Assembly (NCBI RefSeq): GCF_000513895.2
Contig: NZ_CP165782.1
Location: 372,001 to 436,000, forward strand
Direction: 5' to 3'
From: Ensifer sp. WSM1721
Lineage (GTDB): Bacteria > Pseudomonadota > Alphaproteobacteria > Rhizobiales > Rhizobiaceae
DNA: 64,000 nt
Shown here: positions 9,546 to 20,765 of the stretch, one piece after another
How positions within the stretch are numbered: the stretch's first letter is position 1
How the letters are laid out: the number at the start of each line of letters is the position of its first letter
Position numbers and translations under genes: made by a program
The notes under the pieces: generated by a model
Databases searched by the model: none
What the model was told of the DNA's origin: nothing
What the model saw: only the letters and a program-made list of their open reading frames with translations

Positions 9546-10010
9546 GTGCGCACTATTCTTGATGCAGACGTGCTGGCGCTGAAGGGCGCGACCGAAGCGA
9601 GTTTTGTTCTCGGCAAGGGTCTCACGTCATTTGCCAACTTCACCCGCGTGGGTGTCTCGACGCTCTCGAAGTACGCATCGGGAAGCGAAGAATTTCGCGA
9701 CAACGTGATCCCCGTCGATATCGCCGTTGAGGCCGACCGGCGCGCGGGCTCTCCCATCATCATCGGAGAGGCTGCGCGGCAGCTCGGTTACGGGCTATCG
9801 CCGCTCGTCGGCCAGGCCGAAGGTCGGCCGGTGACCGAGGCGGCGGCCCTCAGGGTGCTGCACGAGGCCAACGATGTCTCCCGCGCCATCGTCGAGGCGA
9901 TCGCCGACGGCAAGGTCGACGCGCTCGACCGGAAGAAGATCGCACAGGAGACGCGCGAGGCAATTCGCGCGCTGCAGGAAGTGCTCGCCGGGCTGGAGGG
10001 CGCGGAGTGA
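9546..10010 (+). CDS. putative phage regulator (CII-like?)
   Basis: A 154-residue protein with a GTG start. The N-terminal half (KGLTSFANFTRVGVSTLSKYASG) resembles a degenerate helix-turn-helix, followed by VDIAVEADRRAGSPII, a pattern seen in phage CII-type regulators. The C-terminal half is helical. It lies after a terminator at the head of the replication operon, a place where lambdoid phages encode CII. The assignment is tentative. Confidence 0.5.
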   Translation: MRTILDADVLALKGATEASFVLGKGLTSFANFTRVGVSTLSKYASGSEEFRDNVIPVDIAVEADRRAGSPIIIGEAARQLGYGLSPLVGQAEGRPVTEAAALRVLHEANDVSRAIVEAIADGKVDALDRKKIAQETREAIRALQEVLAGLEGAE

Positions 10011-11524: not shown

Positions 11525-11883
11525 GCGAATTCGACCCCATGGCGGTGCGCGGCAAAGCGGCAGCCGCCGACGACGATACGCCGCCGCCTTCCTCCTCTGC
11601 GACCGGTCGGCCCGGGCACCAAGTTTCCTCCAACCAGGTGGCGCGCGACCAGCTGCGCGCCTTCGTCGAGCGCGTCGAGCGGCTGGAGGAGGAGAAGAAG
11701 CAGGTCGCCGACGACATCAAGCTTGTCTACGGCGAGGCGAAGGCCATGGGCTTCGATTCCAAGGCGCTGCGCGCGATCGTCCGCATCCGCAAGAAAGACT
11801 TCAGCGAGTTCGAGAACGAACAGGCGGTGCTCGACTCCTATCTGGCGGCCCTCGGCATGATCCCGGGAGGCTTCGATGAGTGA
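11521..11883 (+). CDS. DUF2312 (GapR-family) nucleoid-associated protein
   Basis: A 120-residue protein whose C-terminal 80 residues carry the DUF2312 signature: [40 protein letters not shown] and [13 protein letters not shown]. Chromosomal GapR binds overtwisted AT-rich DNA ahead of replication forks in alphaproteobacteria. The phage copy has an extra 40-residue low-complexity N-terminus. It sits in the replication operon, so a role on replicating phage DNA is plausible but inferred. Confidence 0.85.
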
Positions 11884-14410
11884 GTCTGAATTCTCAGCAA
11901 AGATCGGCAACAATGATTTGCCGGTGGCGTTGCGGATCAGCCAGATCCACGTCGGGCACCGGCTTCGCGTTGTCGATCAGGCTAAGGTTGACGCTCTCAA
12001 GGCTTCGATCGAGGAACTTGGCCTGCGCACGCCGATCTCCGTCGTCGGGTCCACGCTCGCGGCCAGCACGCCCTTGCAGATGGTGACGCTCGCCGCCGGC
12101 GCGCACCGTCTCGAGGCGATGAAGCAGCTCGGCCGCGAACATATCGCTGCGATCATCCGCAACGAGGACGATCTCGACGCCGAGCTTTGGGAGATCGACG
12201 AGAACCTTTGCCGCGCGGAACTGACGCCGGCGGACCGGGCGCTCTTCGTGTTTCGCAGGAAAGAAATCTACCTGCTCAAGCATCCGGACACGGCGCACGG
12301 GGCAGTCGGCAACGGACGCGAGAAGAGTCGCCAAGTTGGCGACTCTACCGACGAGCCAAAGCGCTTCACTGCGGCGACGGCAGAGGCGACCGGGCAATCC
12401 GAGCGGGCCATCCAGCGCGACGCCGAGCGCGGCGAGAAGATCTCCGCGAAGGCGCTGCGCATGCTCCGCGGCACGCGCCATGACAAGGGCGTCGTGCTCG
12501 ACCGGCTGAAAAGCCTTCGCGACGAAGAGCAGGAAGTCTATGTCCGGGCGCTGTTCGAGGCGGACAAGGCCAAGGAAGCGGAAGCGCACGAGATCCGCTC
12601 GGACAAGATGGCGACGAAGCGAGCCGTCCGCATCGGCATCATCAACGCGATCGCCGAGCACGGCCAGCGGGTGGCCGGCGAAATGCCGCGCGCCGCCTAT
12701 GCCGTCGGCTATGCCGATCCGCCGTGGGAGCAGGAAGCCTGGAGCGACGAGACCGGGCAGGACAAGGGCCTGATGTACCCGCCGATGCCGCTCGAGGAAA
12801 TCAAGGCGCTTTGTGCCGGCGAGAAAAGCCCGTTCACGCGCGACGCGATCCTCTTCCTGTGGGTGACGACGAACCGTCTCGACGACGGGATCTCGGTTCT
12901 GAAATCCTGGGGCTTCGAGTTTGTCTCGGCGATCACCTGGGACAAGCAGCATATCGGCATGGGGCGCTGGGTGCGCGACCGCACCGAGCACCTGCTGATC
13001 GGCAAGCGCGGCGACTTTCCCGGCCTCATCATGGGCACGCAGCCGGAAAGCCTCTACTCAGAGGCCAAGGGCGGGCATAGCCGCAAGCCGGTGTGGTTTG
13101 CCGAGCAGATCGACCGGCTGTTTCCGGAGATGCGGAAGCTGGAGCTTTTCCAGCGGCGGGAAAGCCTCGGCGAGGGCGATATCCGGCTGAACGGGCTTTG
13201 GGATTTCTGGGGGTTCGAGGCTGGCGGTGACGATGCGGAGCCATCTGCAGAGGCGCCTGTAGAGCAACCTGCAGAGCCGGCCGCGGTTGCGCAAGGTGGT
13301 GATCCATTGGCAGAGGCCATTATTGCGGCCGGGCTCGCGCCAAGCGCCTATATTCTGAACCTCAATCGAGGTTTGACGAACCCTGCGACCCTCGACCTTC
13401 CGTCGAGACTGTTTCGATTCCCTGTCGAGTTCATGGCTGCCGATCGAAGCGGCGGCGAAAGCCGCCTTCTGCTGCGTCATCCTCTGCTTTGGCAGATTCT
13501 TCAGGTTTCCGATTTTCTTGCCGAGATCGAACAGAAAATCGGCGTTCGGCCGACATGGGAGCCGCTCGACGAGTTCGGTCGCGACTTCGGAGAGCAGTGG
13601 CGGTGGTACCACTCCGTCGACCTTTGCAACGACCAGCACTGGCAAGGATTGCTCAAGACCCAGCGATTTACCGACCGCGACAAGATTTTTACCGCCGTGC
13701 AACTCGGGCTCGAAAGCAAAAGTTTGTCGGTGAAGAACGCGCGATCGGTGATGGCGGAACTGGAGAGCATCGAGCCTGCAAGATCTGCAAGCGTCGAGCT
13801 GATGCTCGGCAACGTGCTGATGCCCTACCGACACGACAAGGGCAAGCTCATCTCGCCGAACATATCGGAGCGTAATGAAATCGGCGCGTGGCTCGTCATC
13901 CACGGGCTTGAAGATGGTTTCTTCAATTACGCCGGTAGTTACCTGTCGGTGACGGCCGATGGCATGGCGCGTCGCGAAAAAGTGGAGAATGTTCCCGCGC
14001 CTACGACGGAAGAGTCGGCGCCGCAGGCGGAGCCGGCATCGAAGCTGCCGCCCGGACCCGGCAAGAAGGCGCCTGTGGAGTTCCATGTCGGCGGCATGCG
14101 CAAGGGCAGCTTCGCGCGCTTCGCCGTGCATCTGAACGATGACGGCACGCACTCGATCTCGGCCGCCTACGACATCAAGGACTATGCCGGCGGCACGAGC
14201 GAGCGGATCGGCAATCTCTCGACATTTGCCGGGGCGTTGCGGATGGGACTTGCCGAGCTGGCCGGGCGCCTGCGGCCGATCCTGAAGGACGAGTCGGCGG
14301 CCTGCACATCGGCGCACCGGGCGTGCGCGCGGGCCGGGCTAAAATGGATCGAGGCGCGCTTCGAGGAATGGGGCCTTGGCGCCGTCGCCCCGGAAAGCGA
14401 GGCGGCATGA
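11876..14410 (+). CDS. ParB domain - MT-A70 methyltransferase fusion with long C-terminal extension
   Basis: An 844-residue protein. Residues about 20-110 are a ParB-like domain ([39 protein letters not shown]). Residues about 120-260 are helical and follow the usual post-ParB region. Residues about 275-450 are an MT-A70 adenine methyltransferase with YADPPW at 279-284 and [13 protein letters not shown]. The last about 390 residues have no recognised catalytic motif, with a Pro/Glu-rich linker near 460 and again near 690. It probably makes N6-methyladenine in DNA, with the ParB domain giving target or partner choice. The start overlaps the DUF2312 gene by eight bases. Confidence 0.8.
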
Positions 14411-14721: not shown

Positions 14722-14911
14722 CAGGCGCCGGTCGCGCTCGGCCGCGGTGATGAGCGGCAAGATGGATGAGCGGCAGGCGATCGCCGCCCTCATCCTATGG
14801 AAATCCGGTCACTTCGACACGCTCGACATTGCTGATGTGCTCGGCTGCGGCGAGGACGCCGTATGCCGCACGCTGCAGGCGGCGCGGCATGTGGAAAGGG
14901 GGAAGGCGTGA
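14705..14911 (+). CDS. small HTH-like phage protein
   Basis: A 68-residue protein. ALILWKSGHFDTLDIADVLGCGEDAVCRTLQAARHVE resembles a sigma-70 region 4 type helix-turn-helix. It overlaps the previous gene by 17 bp and the next by four (GTGA). Confidence 0.6.
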   Translation: MLQLADRRRSRSAAVMSGKMDERQAIAALILWKSGHFDTLDIADVLGCGEDAVCRTLQAARHVERGKA

Positions 14912-16209
14912 GCATCGCCATCATGTCACAGCTCTTCAGGGCGCATCTCGGCTCGACCGGGCGCAAGATGCTGGCCCTGCGCCTAGCGGACTTCGCAGAC
15001 GACGACGGCAAGGGCATCTGGCCGACGGTCAGGAAGCTTTCTCAGGAGACGGAGCTTTCCGAGCGCACCGTCCAGCGCATCCTCGCCGAGTTCGTCGACG
15101 AGGGGCTCCTGCTCGTGGTGAAGAAGGGCGGCAGCAAGCCAGGTGAGGCGACGCGATACGATTTCAACATGGCGGCGATCGCGCGCCTGCCGTCCGCAAA
15201 ATCGGTAGCCGACGGGTGTCATGGTGTCACCCATGACACAGTGTCACCCGTGACACCGGCGACAGAGACGGGTGACACTGACGACGCCGACGGGTGTCAC
15301 GGTGTCACCCAAACCGTAATAGAACCACCAATAGAACCATCAGAGAGAGAGGGTGCGCGCGAAGGCGATTTGAAGGATCAGGACGATCCGGCAAAGTTCG
15401 TCCAGCGGGTGAAGGCTCTCGAAATGGGCAGGGCGAACAATCCGTGGCCCGGTGCGATCGCCTCGTCGACGGCATGGGCGCTGCAGCAGTTCGAGAAGCT
15501 GACGCCGGAGGAGCGGCGTTTGGCTGAGGAACGGCGGGATGCCTACCTCGCCGAATGCAAGGCGCAGAAGGTCAAGAACGTCGCGCTGGGCGTCTACCTG
15601 CGGGACAAGAAATTCCTCGATGTGGTGCCTTCCGCCGTGAAGGCGCAGGCGGCCGGCGCGAAGATTCCGGTTGCTCCCTTCGGTCCAGTTTGGGCCGGCA
15701 TGAGGGCGCTGGCGCTGCTCGATGGGCCGGAGCCTGTCGAGGTGCCGCTCGATGTTCGCGATCGCGTCAGGCAGACGTTTGAGGTCATGCGCCGAAGCAG
15801 CGAGGCGAGGGCGCTGGCCTACCTGCACGGCAAAGGGATCGGGCTCGCCGACGGCGACCAGCTGATCTTCCCGGATGACTTCGACCAGGCGGAGCTGCGT
15901 CGCCGCGTCGTGGAGGACGGTTATCCGCGGGCAAAGGAGCTGCACCAGCAGGCGAAGGGCCGCGAGCGCGGCGTAGCCGAGGCGCGCTTCGAAGTGCTTG
16001 CCGATCTCTGTGAGCCGGTGCCAGTCGGCTCCGATCTCTTCGAGTGCTGGCGAGACTATCACGAGGAGGAAGGCTGGCCGTTCGTGCCAGATCCCGGACA
16101 GATGCCGGTCGTCTATTTCCCGAAGGGCGGCCCGGAAGGACTTCACGATTTCGAAATCGCCGCACGCGCGGCACTGAGACAGGAGCGGAGAGATGACCAT
16201 GCAGCGTAG
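14908..16209 (+). CDS. replication-initiator-like winged-helix protein
   Basis: A 433-residue protein starting at GTG 14908, coupled to the upstream stop. Residues about 30-75 are a wHTH_36-type winged helix (WPTVRKLSQETELSERTVQRILAEFVDEGLLLVV). Residues about 100-135 are a Thr/Asp-rich linker encoded by the iteron-like repeats at 15216-15307. The C-terminal 280 residues are a helical domain without a recognised motif. Layout (DNA-binding N-terminus, repeats inside the gene, early-operon position) parallels lambda O and other theta initiators. No helicase or loader motif is visible, so the host DnaB system would be needed. Confidence 0.65.
   Translation: MSIAIMSQLFRAHLGSTGRKMLALRLADFADDDGKGIWPTVRKLSQETELSERTVQRILAEFVDEGLLLVVKKGGSKPGEATRYDFNMAAIARLPSAKSVADGCHGVTHDTVSPVTPATETGDTDDADGCHGVTQTVIEPPIEPSEREGAREGDLKDQDDPAKFVQRVKALEMGRANNPWPGAIASSTAWALQQFEKLTPEERRLAEERRDAYLAECKAQKVKNVALGVYLRDKKFLDVVPSAVKAQAAGAKIPVAPFGPVWAGMRALALLDGPEPVEVPLDVRDRVRQTFEVMRRSSEARALAYLHGKGIGLADGDQLIFPDDFDQAELRRRVVEDGYPRAKELHQQAKGRERGVAEARFEVLADLCEPVPVGSDLFECWRDYHEEEGWPFVPDPGQMPVVYFPKGGPEGLHDFEIAARAALRQERRDDHAA
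15216..15307. repeat. iteron-like cluster, candidate replication origin
   Basis: Eight copies of GTGTCA or its complement TGACAC occur in 92 bp: 15216, 15224, 15241, 15294 and 15302 direct; 15234, 15251 and 15273 inverted (first base of each). A 19-bp unit GGGTGTCA(t/c)GGTGTCACCC occurs twice (15214-15232, 15292-15310). The cluster lies inside the initiator-like gene, as in lambda ori. A slightly A-rich stretch follows at 15311-15350. Confidence 0.6.
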
Positions 16210-16840
16210 GATCTTCACCGGTAGCCCGATTGCGCTGCAGGGCCGCGAGCGTTTCGAGGACCGGATGCGCCGAATCACAGAAAGAAGCTTGAGGGCTGCC
16301 TCCATGAAATTTACCGAAAAGAACCCCGAATCGGCTCGCTGGTACTGCCTGCTCGTGAAGCGGGGCCGAGAATTCGATGTGGAAAACTCTCTGAGGGAGG
16401 CAAACGTCGAGGCATTTATGCCGCGCGAGCGGGTCATCAAGGTCCGTCACGGACGGAAAATCGAGGGCGATATTCCCTATTTCCCGAGCTACATGCTGGT
16501 GAGATGCGTGCCGTCGCCCGAGGCTTTCCTCGGCCTTCGGCGGCACAAGAATGTGCTCGATATCGTCGGGGGAGCAACGGGCTATCACATCGTCAGAGAC
16601 GAGAATGTTGCAATGTTTAAAAGGGTTTGCGAGGGGGCCGAGGTGCCGCGCATTGCGACGGACAAGACGTTCCAGCAAGGCGACAGTGCCGACATCGTGC
16701 TCGGTCCCTTCGCCGGCTTCATGTGCATCGTCACGGCAGTGAAGTGGTGCCGGCAGGCGAAGGCGAGCGTCCGCATCGACGTGCATGGGCGCCCGTTCGA
16801 CATCGACAGCATGCCTCTTGCGTTTTTGAAAAAGCTGTGA
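16193..16840 (+). CDS. NusG/RfaH-family antitermination protein, phage-encoded
   Basis: A 215-residue protein. The N-terminal 55 residues are an extra charged region. Then comes a NusG N-terminal domain (SARWYCLLVKRGREFDVENSLREANVEAFMP, GDIPYFPSYMLVRC) and a C-terminal KOW-like domain (FQQGDSADIVLGPFAGFMCIV, IDVHGRPFDIDSMPLAFL). NusG proteins bind RNA polymerase and change pausing and termination. This one is the last early gene, directly before a structured leader with a terminator and the late operon, so it most likely lets polymerase read into the late genes, a functional counterpart of lambda Q. It overlaps the previous gene by 17 bp. Confidence 0.8.
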   Translation: MTMQRRIFTGSPIALQGRERFEDRMRRITERSLRAASMKFTEKNPESARWYCLLVKRGREFDVENSLREANVEAFMPRERVIKVRHGRKIEGDIPYFPSYMLVRCVPSPEAFLGLRRHKNVLDIVGGATGYHIVRDENVAMFKRVCEGAEVPRIATDKTFQQGDSADIVLGPFAGFMCIVTAVKWCRQAKASVRIDVHGRPFDIDSMPLAFLKKL

Positions 16841-17048
16841 GAGTCATTCTCCAACGGACGAACCGGATACCGTAACCCTCCGATCCCCTTGTCTCGATAC
16901 AAGGGCAGAGCAGGCGAAGAGCCTCAGGGAACAACGCCCCGGTCCCGCACCCTGACAGCCTCGAAAGAGAGGCACCGACTCAGGGCCAGTGCGCAAGCTA
17001 TGACCAGATGACAGGCGGCCGAGAGGTCGCCTTTTTTCGTTTAAGGTT
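16841..17048 (+). ncRNA. structured late-operon leader (untranslated)
   Basis: 208 bases without an ORF between the NusG-like gene and the first late gene. It can form several hairpins: CCCTTGT/ACAAGGG (16886-16892 with 16899-16905), GCCTC/GAGGC around GAAAGA (about 16960-16975), CTCAGGG/CCCTGA pairings, and the terminator at 17014-17037. I do not recognise a named RNA family. Its position suggests a target for the NusG paralogue. Confidence 0.5.
17014..17037 (+). terminator. rho-independent terminator before the late operon
   Basis: A seven-pair stem GGCGGCC (17014-17020) with GGTCGCC (17025-17031), GAGA tetraloop, then six T residues (17032-17037). It ends 11 bp before the first late gene start, so late transcription from upstream must pass it. 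Confidence 0.85.
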
Positions 17049-17825
17049 ATGGAGTTCCAGTTCCAGAGCAACATTGCCGAGTGGACGAAGAACCTGGAGG
17101 ACATCTACCGGCGGCAGATACCGTTCGCGACGGCGCAAGCGCTGAACGACACGGTCGAGGATCTGCGCGAACACCATCGCATGATCCTGCCGGTCACCTT
17201 CGATCGGCCGACCCGCTACACGTTGAACAGCCTGCGCATCCTGAAGGCGAGCACGCGACGTGATCTGGTCGCCGGCATCTACTTCAAGGAAAGTAATCGC
17301 AGCGGCCAGCACTATCTCATGCCGCAGGTTGAAGGGGGCGGCAGGCCGCACAAGGCCTTCGAGCGGTGGCTTATTCAGCGTGGCATCATGGCATCGAACG
17401 AATACGCGGTGCCAGCCTCCGGCCTGAAGCTCGATGCCTATGGCAACGTCTCCGGTAGCGTGATCACCAGCATCTTGTCGCAGCTCTACGCTTCACCTGA
17501 TGCGCATCAATGGGAGACGGCTCGATCGCGCAAGCGCGCCGGTCCAGCGCGCAATCGCTACTTCGTGCCGCAACCGGGCAGCTCGCTTCGGCGCGGCATC
17601 TGGCGGCGGAAGGGAAAGAAGACGATAGAGCCTGTCTTCGTCTTCGTTTCCTCGGTCGCATACCAGGCGCGGTATCCGTTCTTCGATATCAGCATGGAAC
17701 GTGCACGCATCTATTTCCCGATGAACTTCGAACGGCGCTTGCTCGCCGGCATCGAAGACCAGCGGTCATATCGCATGAGCCAAGGCATGGCCGCCCCTGC
17801 TTCGAATTGGTCGATGTCGACCTGA
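17049..17825 (+). CDS. putative minor tail protein (lambda gpZ / tail-completion-like)
   Basis: A 258-residue basic protein. The N-terminus (SNIAEWTKNLEDIYRRQIPFATAQALNDTVEDLREHH) has the pattern of lambda gpZ-type minor tail proteins, and no membrane segment is seen. It is the first gene after the terminator and lies upstream of the terminase genes, an unusual place for a tail protein. Function by weak similarity only. The 167 bp downstream hold no ORF that I trust. Confidence 0.5.
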   Translation: MEFQFQSNIAEWTKNLEDIYRRQIPFATAQALNDTVEDLREHHRMILPVTFDRPTRYTLNSLRILKASTRRDLVAGIYFKESNRSGQHYLMPQVEGGGRPHKAFERWLIQRGIMASNEYAVPASGLKLDAYGNVSGSVITSILSQLYASPDAHQWETARSRKRAGPARNRYFVPQPGSSLRRGIWRRKGKKTIEPVFVFVSSVAYQARYPFFDISMERARIYFPMNFERRLLAGIEDQRSYRMSQGMAAPASNWSMST

Positions 17826-17992
17826 CCGGAAGGCGGAAACCCCGGCCGAGGCACATGCGACCCCTCGATCAGCCCATCACGGGTCCTTCCAGCGATTTAA
17901 GGCCCCGCGAGGTAGTTCGAACCCCGATTTGTTTGACTATTTGGTGCGGCCGATGGGCTGCTTTTTCCATTGTTGTTGTTGTGGTCCCCTGA

Positions 17993-18649
17993 ATGACCGA
18001 TGAAGGCAACGCACTGACCGAAAGTCAGGTGCTCGACCTCGTGGCGCGCTATCCGCTGCCAGAGGGCGTGGTCGATTGCGTCATGACGCGGGAAGAGCTT
18101 GCTGAAGCGGTTGCTGTTTCGCTTCCGACCATCACCGAATGGATCGGCAAGGGGATGCCGGTCAAGGAAATGGGCGGGCAGGGCCGACCGTATCAGCTCG
18201 TGCTTTCGCACTGCTGGGCCTGGCGGCAGGCGTGGAAGGCGCAAGAGGACCTGCGGTCCGAGCAGGTGAAGCGGACGCAGGCGGCAATGCGCCTCGCGCT
18301 TGTCGGCGGCTCGGCCGGTGACAGCGAAATGGCGCTCGACCCGAAAACGCGGCGCGAGATACTTGCGGTGCAGATCGAGCAGGAGCGCTTCCAGCGCGAG
18401 CGCAACGAACTGCTGCGCCGGGGTGACGTCTCCGAAACCTTCGATACCCTGCTCGGCATCATTCGCGACACGATGGAGAGCGCCCCCGACCGAGTCGAGC
18501 GTCGGCAGGCGATTCCGCCAAAAGTCACCGACATGCTCGTCGAGATCTGCGACGAGATGCTCGCCGAGCTGCGCAGGCGGATCGAGGATTTCTGGGACAA
18601 GCGGCAGGTGCGCGACATTCGGCAGGCGCGGGATCTGTTCGATGCATAG
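17993..18649 (+). CDS. terminase small subunit (Nu1/DUF1441-like)
   Basis: A 218-residue DNA-recognition subunit. MTREELAEAVAVSLPTITEWIGKGMPVKEMGGQGRPYQL is the winged-helix region of Nu1-type proteins (residues about 30-70). It is followed by a long helical region for assembly with the large subunit. The stop overlaps the large-subunit start by eight bases. Confidence 0.85.
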   Translation: MTDEGNALTESQVLDLVARYPLPEGVVDCVMTREELAEAVAVSLPTITEWIGKGMPVKEMGGQGRPYQLVLSHCWAWRQAWKAQEDLRSEQVKRTQAAMRLALVGGSAGDSEMALDPKTRREILAVQIEQERFQRERNELLRRGDVSETFDTLLGIIRDTMESAPDRVERRQAIPPKVTDMLVEICDEMLAELRRRIEDFWDKRQVRDIRQARDLFDA

Positions 18650-20765
18650 CACTCCCGCCTGGTTGCGGTTTCTGCCGCCAGTGCCGCCGCCGAAGTTTGC
18701 TGATCCTGGTGATCTCATCATCGAGCGGCTCGGCACCTTGCGGCCGGCGCTCAGAATAGACGTTCCGACGTGGGCTGAAAGCAGCCGGCGTCTGTCGACA
18801 AAGGAGTATCAGGGTCTCTGGAGGAATGACTTTGCGCCGTACATGACCGAGCCATCGCGCATGGTGACGTCGCGGAAGTACAGGGCGGTCGTTTTTGCCG
18901 GCCCGGCGCGAACGTCGAAATCGGAAAGCCTTGTCCTGAATGGCATCGGTCACCGTATCGCCTGTGCGCCGGCCGATACCCTGGTGGTCTGCCAGACGAA
19001 GGACAGCGCCAAGGCATTCTCGGAGAAGAAGCTGGCGCCGATGCTCCGGGCGAACCGCGACCTTGCCGCCAAGCAATTGACGAGCCGGGGTGCGGACAAC
19101 ATTCACGAGAAGAAGTTCCAGGGGAACATGAACCTCGTGATCGGCTGGCCGGTCATCGGCTACTTCAGCCAGAACGAATACACCTTCGTCATCCTGACCG
19201 ATCGCGATCGTATGCCCGACGATGTCGACGGCGAAGGTGATCCGATGACGCTGGCGAAAAAGCGGACGCAACAGGCCGGCTCGCTCGGCATGGTCATAGA
19301 GGAGAGTTCTCCGGGCCGAGTGATCGAGCAGGACGATTGGAAGCCGGGGACGCCGCATGAGGCGCCGCCGTGCTCGGGTATCCTGGGCGATTACAATCTC
19401 GGGACGCGTGGCGCGTTCTACTGGACTTGTCCTTCCTGCAATGAGCCGTTCCGGCCGGAATTCGATCGCTTGCAGTGGGAAACGAAGGCGACGCCCAGCG
19501 AGAGCGCGCAGACCGTCGAGATGGTTTGCCCGAACGGCTGCTGTATCCCGCAGTCGCACAAGTTCGAATGCAACCGGGCCGGCTTCTGGTTGCACGAGAC
19601 CAGCGACGGCAAGGACGTGTGCGAGATCGATGATCCGAACGTTCGTGATGCCGAGATCGTGTCCTATCGGTGCGAGGGGCCGATCGCCGCGATGCAGAGT
19701 TGGGAACAGCTCGTTTCCACCTACCTCGAGGCAAAGGAGAAGTTCGACGCCACCGGCGACGATACCTCGCTGAAAGCGACGATCACCCTCGACCAGGGCA
19801 AGCCTTACCTGCCGCTCGTCAGGAGCATCGGCGAGTCGGTGTCGGAAGATACGCTGCGGGCGCTCGCCGAGCGCTATCCACTCCGGATCGTCCCGGCAGA
19901 GGCGCGGTTCCTGACGGTTCAGATCGACATCCAGGGCAACCGTTTCGTTGTCCATGTCGATGCCTGGGGCGAGGGGCTGGAGCGCTGGCTGATCGACCGC
20001 TTCGACATCGCGCAGCCGCCGGAGACGGCGCCCGGCGGCCAGCGCGACGAGAAGGGCAACGCCCGCCGCGCGATCGACCCGGCTCGGTATTTCGAGGATT
20101 GGGCCGATCTGCCGGCGTTGCTGCACAAGGCCTATCCGGTCGAGGGCAGCGAATTCTCGCTGATGCCGGTTGCGATGATCATTGACTCGGCCGGTCGGCC
20201 GGGCGTCACGCCGAACGCCTATCGCTTCCTGCGCAAGATGAAGCGCGAAGGCCTTGGGCAGCGCGTGTTCCTGGCGAAGGGCAGTTCCCGCCTCGATGAT
20301 CGCGCCCGGCACGTCGAACCGGAAAAGGTGCTCCAGCAGAAGGGCCGCAAGATCAGCGATATCAAGCTGGTTTTCGTCGGAACCGACAAGCTGAAAGATG
20401 AGGTCATCCTGGCGGTCACCCGCAAGGAAGCGGGGCCGGGCAAGTATCATCTCAGCGAGCATCTGCCGGCGCAGGTCTTTGCGGAGATGACCGCCGAAGT
20501 CCGGACAGAAAAGGGCTGGGAGCGCCGGAAGAGCGGCGCTCCCAACGAAGCCTTCGACCTGTCGGTCTACGGAAAAGCGCTCGTCATCATCCTGAAGGGC
20601 GAGAAGATCGACTGGGGCAATCCGCATACCGTCCCGCATTGGGCGCGGCCAGCCAACGAGAATTCCTTCGCCGTGCGGCAGCAGCAGGGCGCGGCGCAGA
20701 AGTCCGAACTGATCCATCCCGCGCCGGTCCGCCGGCGCAGGGTCCTCTCACAGGGTATCCGCTAA
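18642..20765 (+). CDS. terminase large subunit (GpA family)
   Basis: A 707-residue packaging motor and nuclease of the lambda gpA class. A deviant Walker A (GPARTSKSE, residues about 87-95) resembles the lambda form, and the Walker B-like region reads FVILTDRDRMPDDVDGEGDP. A Cys cluster (CPSCNEPF ... CPNGCC) near 265-305 may bind zinc. The C-terminal nuclease part includes FLTVQIDIQGNRFVVHVDAWG, IIDSAGRP and the end near 690. The start at 18642 is fixed by overlap with the small subunit. It cuts and packages the genome, probably at cos-type sites. Confidence 0.93.
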   Translation: MHSTPAWLRFLPPVPPPKFADPGDLIIERLGTLRPALRIDVPTWAESSRRLSTKEYQGLWRNDFAPYMTEPSRMVTSRKYRAVVFAGPARTSKSESLVLNGIGHRIACAPADTLVVCQTKDSAKAFSEKKLAPMLRANRDLAAKQLTSRGADNIHEKKFQGNMNLVIGWPVIGYFSQNEYTFVILTDRDRMPDDVDGEGDPMTLAKKRTQQAGSLGMVIEESSPGRVIEQDDWKPGTPHEAPPCSGILGDYNLGTRGAFYWTCPSCNEPFRPEFDRLQWETKATPSESAQTVEMVCPNGCCIPQSHKFECNRAGFWLHETSDGKDVCEIDDPNVRDAEIVSYRCEGPIAAMQSWEQLVSTYLEAKEKFDATGDDTSLKATITLDQGKPYLPLVRSIGESVSEDTLRALAERYPLRIVPAEARFLTVQIDIQGNRFVVHVDAWGEGLERWLIDRFDIAQPPETAPGGQRDEKGNARRAIDPARYFEDWADLPALLHKAYPVEGSEFSLMPVAMIIDSAGRPGVTPNAYRFLRKMKREGLGQRVFLAKGSSRLDDRARHVEPEKVLQQKGRKISDIKLVFVGTDKLKDEVILAVTRKEAGPGKYHLSEHLPAQVFAEMTAEVRTEKGWERRKSGAPNEAFDLSVYGKALVIILKGEKIDWGNPHTVPHWARPANENSFAVRQQQGAAQKSELIHPAPVRRRRVLSQGIR

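Follow-up and report, generated by a model that had tools for sequence, protein, structure and literature searches.

We analysed a stretch of 64,000 nucleotides from Ensifer sp. WSM1721 (the window, in whose coordinates all positions are given) that holds the border between the early and late genes of a prophage; the features from the replication gene to the terminases all lie on the forward strand. A phage-type replication initiation gene (14863–16209; open reading frame, phrog_270 at 4.3e-40) leads into the gene for a NusG paralogue (16193–16840), whose ATG lies inside the 3′ end of the replication gene, and this overlap of 17 nt suggests that the two probably form one early operon. They are followed by a structured leader (16841–17048) that extends to the first late gene, for a minor tail protein (17049–17825; phrog_1924, 2.6e-70), and then by the genes for the small and large terminase subunits (17993–20765; phrog_141 and phrog_15), with the late genes running in the order minor tail, terminases, head-tail adaptor, portal, protease, major head, tape measure and tail. 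An earlier note on this DNA, made from its letters alone, had placed the first late gene directly behind the leader, and the minor tail, terminase, head and tail genes identified downstream bear this out. In phi2LM21, PPF1, phi3LM21, MseS-P1 and Rivra, the position equivalent to that of the replication gene carries an annotated HTH or replication protein, and terminase genes come soon after the leader in the window, phi2LM21, phi3LM21, MseS-P1, Rivra, PPF1 and Nsp-JY10.

Further upstream, the window encodes a CII-like regulator (9546–10010) and, in a single frame (11876–14410), a fusion of ParB-like and DNA methyltransferase domains. A second non-coding gap (17826–17992) lies ahead of the small terminase gene; its second part is 86% conserved in phi3LM21, and it contains a terminator-like hairpin at 17946–17961. 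The record of phage PPF1 ends in the counterpart of this gap, which may thus hold cos.

The NusG paralogue

The identification of the 215 aa protein draws on its open reading frame, on Pfam, phrog and profile matches and on a structural model. Its score against the Pfam NusG family (PF02357, 59 bits against a cut-off of 22.2) and its NGN domain followed by a KOW domain place it in the NusG superfamily, as the earlier note had proposed. That note had also described an extra N-terminal region of 55 residues, which is indeed present but measures about 48, with the NGN domain spanning residues from about 49 to 146 and the KOW β-barrel residues 165–214. In the AlphaFold2 model (mean pLDDT 90.2, from an alignment of 56 sequences), the KOW domain is predicted as a β-barrel and the extension contains helices at 21–34 and 38–43, the first 20 residues being of low confidence. 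The start codon is supported by the fact that many relatives begin M-x-MQ. A profile search of solved structures returned NusG as the closest (PDB 5ms0, 1.6e-35), with RfaH and 8f5g lower, the latter titled as a NusG-RNA complex, which we take to be LoaP. Within the KOW motif GPF, the Phe, a partner-contact residue, is retained as F173.

The protein falls below the cut-offs of the models for housekeeping NusG (TIGR00922, 50.2 against 135.7), LoaP (NF033641, 52.5 against 125 bits), RfaH (TIGR01955, 47.8 against 144.5) and UpxY (NF033644, 71.2 against 100). The only matches of the paralogue are to phrog_6386 and NusG-type models, and not to a Q protein. Another NusG-like gene is present in the genome of the window (G000:C1:1159354). 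Phage records already annotate the paralogue as an antitermination or NusG protein, and phrog_6386, to which it matches at 4.3e-53, is itself named “transcription antiterminator”; we rejected this family as a marker of the paralogue, as it also matches housekeeping NusG (364 of 397 genomes).

Leader RNA, GCTATG element and terminator

The 208 nt between the paralogue and the first late gene (16841–17048) hold no convincing gene, and the hairpins that the earlier note had seen in them can now be resolved, from an alignment of 31 leaders (A1), into seven covarying helices, namely P1 to P6 and the terminator stem. A conserved GGACGA (16856–16861), found as GG[AT][CT][AG]A in 148 of 161 leaders at 62–158 nt upstream of the RNA motif, marks the start of domain I (16862–16943). 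Here, P1 (16862–16866 with 16939–16943) encloses P2 (16876–16879/16926–16929), which closes a junction with P3 (16886–16891/16900–16905) and P4 (16912–16915/16921–16924). Domain II (16950–16985) consists of P5 (16950–16955/16980–16985) and P6 (16958–16962/16969–16973) with an asymmetric internal loop between them, and is described by both the covariation and a covariance model, R1, built from motif-selected sequences. The set of 161 leaders leaves out copies of the window (L001, L009, L040, L089, L199) and six matches judged to be chance (L101, L102, L119, L135, L142, L153).

The covariation analysis of related leaders that the earlier note had called for yields compensatory (both-side) changes in at least one pair of each of the seven helices. 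In A1, 30 of whose leaders were obtained via protein search and from which identical leaders were left out, 91.2% of the cells are paired and both-side changes occur in 16 of 38 pairs compared to 7.2 when shuffled, with 61 double-change cells compared to 16.3 in shuffled and at most 14 in slid versions, controls which, like the shuffles and permutations given below, leave shared ancestry in. The weak points are one P1 pair that is unpaired in 19 of 31 leaders and two P5 pairs unpaired in 15 and 10 of 31, which are real mismatches, mostly from one group of close relatives. For domain II, 90.8% of the cells are paired in a larger alignment (A2; 105 of 129 distinct sequences, near-identical ones being excluded by hand), with 75 double-change cells against 22.4 shuffled. 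P1 was examined by setting the 5′ strand of each leader against its own 3′ strand and those of other leaders, after exclusion of the 13 of 161 leaders lacking the GG[AT][CT][AG]A start and then of identical ones: 31 of 54 leaders fit their own strand fully or with one G-U, whereas 2000 permutations gave 5.8 on average and never more than 15. The fold energy of the leader (–70.2 kcal/mol, where dinucleotide shuffles average –59.6; z = –2.44, with 3 of 200 shuffles as good) is modest alone but decisive in combination with the covariation. No Rfam family reaches its gathering score in the leader, the three matches obtained (E 2.9–3.9) being far below theirs, and a known Rfam RNA was rejected as its identity on these grounds.

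We note that two existing annotations overlap this RNA: PPF1_92, a hypothetical protein of Rhizobium phage PPF1 (KJ746502; L036 6622–6774) that lies largely within it and may be spurious, and the annotated start of an HNH gene in Mesorhizobium phage vB_MseS-P1 (L038 6024), which also falls inside the conserved RNA.

Downstream of domain II lies GTGC-GCAA-GCTATG (16989–17002), a mini-hairpin of the form GC-NNNN-GC followed by TATG, and this 14-mer, GTGC-NNNN-GCTATG, is nearly invariant among leaders. By eye, five variant leaders (L248, L249, L289, L292, L299) carry A for T at the third stem position; this A would pair with the conserved T, so that the element can equally be an RNA hairpin. The stretch is possibly RNA hairpin P7, or else an ops-like pause and non-template DNA element, which would make an RfaH/ops-like element within the leader a possibility. 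The ops sequence itself (GGCGGTAGNNTG, with at most one mismatch) is absent from the leader and occurs at two places in the window, fewer than by chance. The loop reads GNNA or TACN in all 120 listed motif places with the gene (GNNA in 72 and TACN in 46 of the 118 leaders with proteins), and the protein tree requires at least 19 switches of loop class, compared to a mean of 36.5 and a minimum of 31 in shuffles. No protein residue was seen to track the loop class in a low-power test of the 25 most-informative columns, with at most 11 independent pairs each, among the rows listed; the idea that the protein recognises the loop specifically was rejected on this residue test, of little power, together with the repeated loop switching.

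The intrinsic terminator (17013–17037) comprises a stem at 17013–17032 and a T run to 17037, ending 11 nt before the late-gene ATG at 17049, just as the earlier note had it, and relatives carry one at a similar distance. By rule, such terminators are found in 107 of 133 distinct downstream stretches, compared to 3.6 expected from mononucleotide shuffles, and 93 of these 107 stems start 10–22 nt after GCTATG, the end of the RNA core. Their sequences are of the GGTCGCC type in 94 cases, and the 13 others comprise, by eye, two near this type, two that are doubtful and far away, and nine that are clearly unrelated (GAGCGCC...GGCGCTC, GCCCGG...CCGGGC and AGCCGGC...GCCGGCT, for example). The terminator is conserved as a position more than as a sequence. 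The 26 stretches failing the rule divide by eye into 12 that have a hairpin with a shorter T run and 14 with none, from which it follows that the terminator is not obligatory, and that in those 14 the system would need to have Rho or more remote sites as its target. Two of the 14, L138 (5346–5422) and L148 (1510–1586), have a tRNA-Met gene close behind the RNA, and we saw no terminator in their leaders. Finally, the genes that follow the leader fall into at least three groups unlinked at E 1e-5 (sizes 57, 40 and 18 of the 128 leaders with a frame, out of 161, of which 16 were cut and 17 had no frame), and the RNA is thus not the leader of a single gene.

Linkage of the RNA to the paralogue and its distribution

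We scanned viral contigs (at least 120 stretches) and 199 host-family genomes with a strict pattern that covers the 3′ portion of this RNA. Among the 133 motif places listed, 120 have a NusG-paralogue frame ending 83–151 nt upstream (110 distinct leader stretches, two being the window’s own copies), and the remaining 13 are made up of seven with too little upstream sequence and six judged to be chance matches, which lie within or beside unrelated frames and are without hairpins. The host family accounts for 13 motif places in 12 of the 199 genomes scanned. The strict form is carried by one of 385 genomes in a sample of the class and one of 398 in a sample of the phylum, in both cases the window’s own genome. 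R1 was found in two of 249 genomes of an order sample, both of the host family.

Starting from the protein instead, we retrieved 66 viral loci with three diverse queries, and R1 detects the RNA in all 66, one locus being cut by a contig end. As the scan for the RNA motif had supplied two of these queries (L079, L082), and L039, the third, was already known to be RNA-positive, the 66 loci are relatives of RNA carriers that overlap the motif set. They are included in 98 protein-first loci, all relatives of four RNA-positive queries and hence a partial check on motif selection, of which 87 (72 distinct leaders) contain the strict motif, the other 11 being ten close variants by eye and one that is cut; several contigs of the viral scan are also present among the loci fetched by protein. 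The strict pattern does miss variants, as in G187, which is RNA-positive by R1 and pattern-negative. The RNA core is retained at protein identities of 24–27% (Rivra, MseS-P1 and Nsp-JY10). We note that the linkage of protein and RNA may stem from operon adjacency alone.

The named carriers are contigs of Sinorhizobium, Rhizobium and Neorhizobium and phages of Sinorhizobium, Rhizobium, Agrobacterium and Mesorhizobium. Nostoc phage Nsp-JY10 (L203 4721–4791) has the same paralogue and RNA (77 bits), where all other named carriers are rhizobial or their phages, which points either to a wider host range or to a host label derived from a mixed culture. A plasmid search gave 29 records that encode NusG-family proteins, including a few from rhizobia, and one genome (G471) has three phage-type NusG paralogues (C4, C32, C51), with the strict RNA motif only on C4.

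A profile search of the family genomes led to 29 loci being examined, with the RNA present in 17 and absent from 12, namely four presumed housekeeping NusG loci (R1 in none of the four) and eight distant paralogues (L221, L222, L224–L227, L229, L230; R1 likewise in none). Inspected by eye, five of these eight leaders have GGACGA or GGATGA followed by a P1-like pair, and three have a P1-like pair with an altered motif. After this pair they diverge into other hairpins (GGTGAGGC...GCCTCACC in L221) and lack GCTATG, and they perhaps represent a second subtype of the RNA.

A candidate late antitermination switch and known systems

The earlier note had read this locus as a candidate late antitermination switch, and the comparison of loci supports such a reading through the linkage of RNA and gene (120 of 126 untruncated listed places and 66 of 66 loci), the covariation and the terminator (107 of 133 stretches). 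With a NusG paralogue gene just before a terminator, and a large, conserved RNA constantly beside it, an antiterminator favoured to act in cis is the simplest account, and we consider it likely that the locus encodes a cis-acting, phage-borne, LoaP-like processive antitermination switch with a larger RNA of its own. From these comparisons we infer that the protein would act through the leader RNA, and that the late genes would depend on the switch. The folded RNA starts 15 nt past the stop codon, so polymerase is expected to arrive from upstream via the early operon, and, given this start and the gene overlap, early transcription would pass through the paralogue gene into the leader, where RNA polymerase would at first halt at the terminator. 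Once made, the paralogue would load on polymerase that has just transcribed the leader, the loading signal probably being domains I and II of the folded RNA together with the GC-NNNN-GC/TATG element. By homology to NusG, the NGN domain would bind polymerase and the KOW domain host partners, and the polymerase so modified would read past the terminator into the virion genes. A more speculative elaboration, which we regard as possible but rather doubtful, is that loading is composite, requiring the two-domain nascent RNA, a pause and the GC-NNNN-GC mini-hairpin (as RNA or as non-template DNA), and so unites the RNA recruitment of LoaP with the DNA-hairpin recruitment of RfaH; the base of P5 lies 16 nt behind the RNA end when polymerase is at TATG.

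Alternatively, the RNA could antiterminate alone, in the manner of HK022 put, with the paralogue serving polarity suppression or transcription-translation coupling in the long late operon. Its size and strong conservation would suit such a role, and put works without a protein factor (PMC11658703, in the portion available); however, among the listed untruncated genuine loci the RNA is never found without the gene, a pairing for which an RNA working by itself would have no need (although adjacency could explain this too), and we think this alternative unlikely. We attach a similarly low probability to a reading in which the early operon ends in the leader, as a terminated 3′ untranslated region or a small RNA, and the late genes are served by their own promoter. 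That operon does end in a terminator, and while our scan for a sigma-70 consensus found no late promoter, this simple scan is blind to rhizobial and phage-specific ones. Against this stand the swapping of terminator sequences while the RNA core and the distance stay constant, the RNA without a terminator in 14 of 133 stretches, and the mere 11 nt between terminator and late gene in the window.

A further alternative is that conservation here reflects a DNA site, for example cos, which by chance lies at the early/late border; the terminase genes are indeed close by. The compensatory changes, however, track RNA pairing, and the linear PPF1 record starts and ends between the minor tail and terminase genes, corresponding to window 17826–17992 rather than to the leader, although record ends may be conventional. 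RNA covariation and the PPF1 record ends thus make cos, or another DNA element, unlikely, and we hold this to be very improbable indeed.

An antiterminator is named at the end of the early region of phiLM21, a phage of the same hosts (PMC12429752, in the parts consulted); we rejected this as the same system, as it has no Pfam NusG match and no R1 match and is a different protein. The terms NusG and antiterm- are absent from the main text, as consulted, of the paper on phi2LM21 and phi3LM21 (PMC5537653), and such a system goes unmentioned in the sections consulted of PMC7819879 and PMC2864571. Among the titles and abstracts of the open-access papers searched, we found no phage NusG paralogue described as a late antiterminator, nor this RNA. 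If the switch is real, a NusG paralogue with a dedicated RNA would join the known routes of phage late-gene activation, in phages whose hosts are nitrogen-fixing and plant-associated bacteria; for these phages, the literature found, as far as consulted, describes no such late control. It would also offer a compact, testable system for target finding by specialised NusG proteins, with natural variants of RNA, loop and terminator.

In phage lambda, the late antiterminator gene Q, the leader terminator (tR′) and the late genes lie in this order, and Q loads at the late promoter with qut. The order of (putative) antiterminator gene, leader terminator and late genes is the same here, but Q shares no ancestry with NusG and is loaded at a promoter of the late genes. 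In the present locus the simple scan found no promoter, and the RNA would have to be transcribed from upstream. HK022 put, as described in the accessible part of PMC11658703, is likewise a structured RNA that is part of a phage transcript and precedes terminators; unlike put, which needs no phage protein, the RNA here is preceded by a NusG paralogue gene.

The comparison with RfaH concerns both protein and nucleic acid. Each system has a NusG paralogue, and the ops loop G4–A7, closed by C3:G8 with TG at 11–12 (PMC5995543, in the part consulted), resembles the present GC-GNNA-GC then TATG in having a C-G-closed four-base loop followed by TG. Here, however, the closing pair is one base further from TG and there is extensive RNA structure, and, unlike the RfaH α-hairpin, the KOW domain is modelled as a β-barrel, although the model would be compatible with fold switching.

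The closest likeness in architecture is to LoaP of Bacillus velezensis, a NusG paralogue that binds a leader RNA hairpin and overrides the leader terminator (PMC12691694, in the portion consulted), and this precedent provides a model for the steps of the proposed switch. As in the dfn/mln leader, a NusG paralogue, a leader RNA hairpin and an intrinsic terminator precede a long operon, but LoaP acts on bacterial antibiotic operons through a small UNCG-type hairpin, whereas here the genes downstream are late genes of a phage, and the RNA has two domains, measures about 150 nt and includes a GNNA/UACN mini-hairpin. The earlier note had called its candidate a different solution from known late switches; judged from the consulted part of PMC12691694, the combination of NusG paralogue, leader hairpin and terminator is already known from LoaP. 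Specialised NusG antitermination is thus known, whereas a phage late switch of such a build, together with its RNA, appears to be new.
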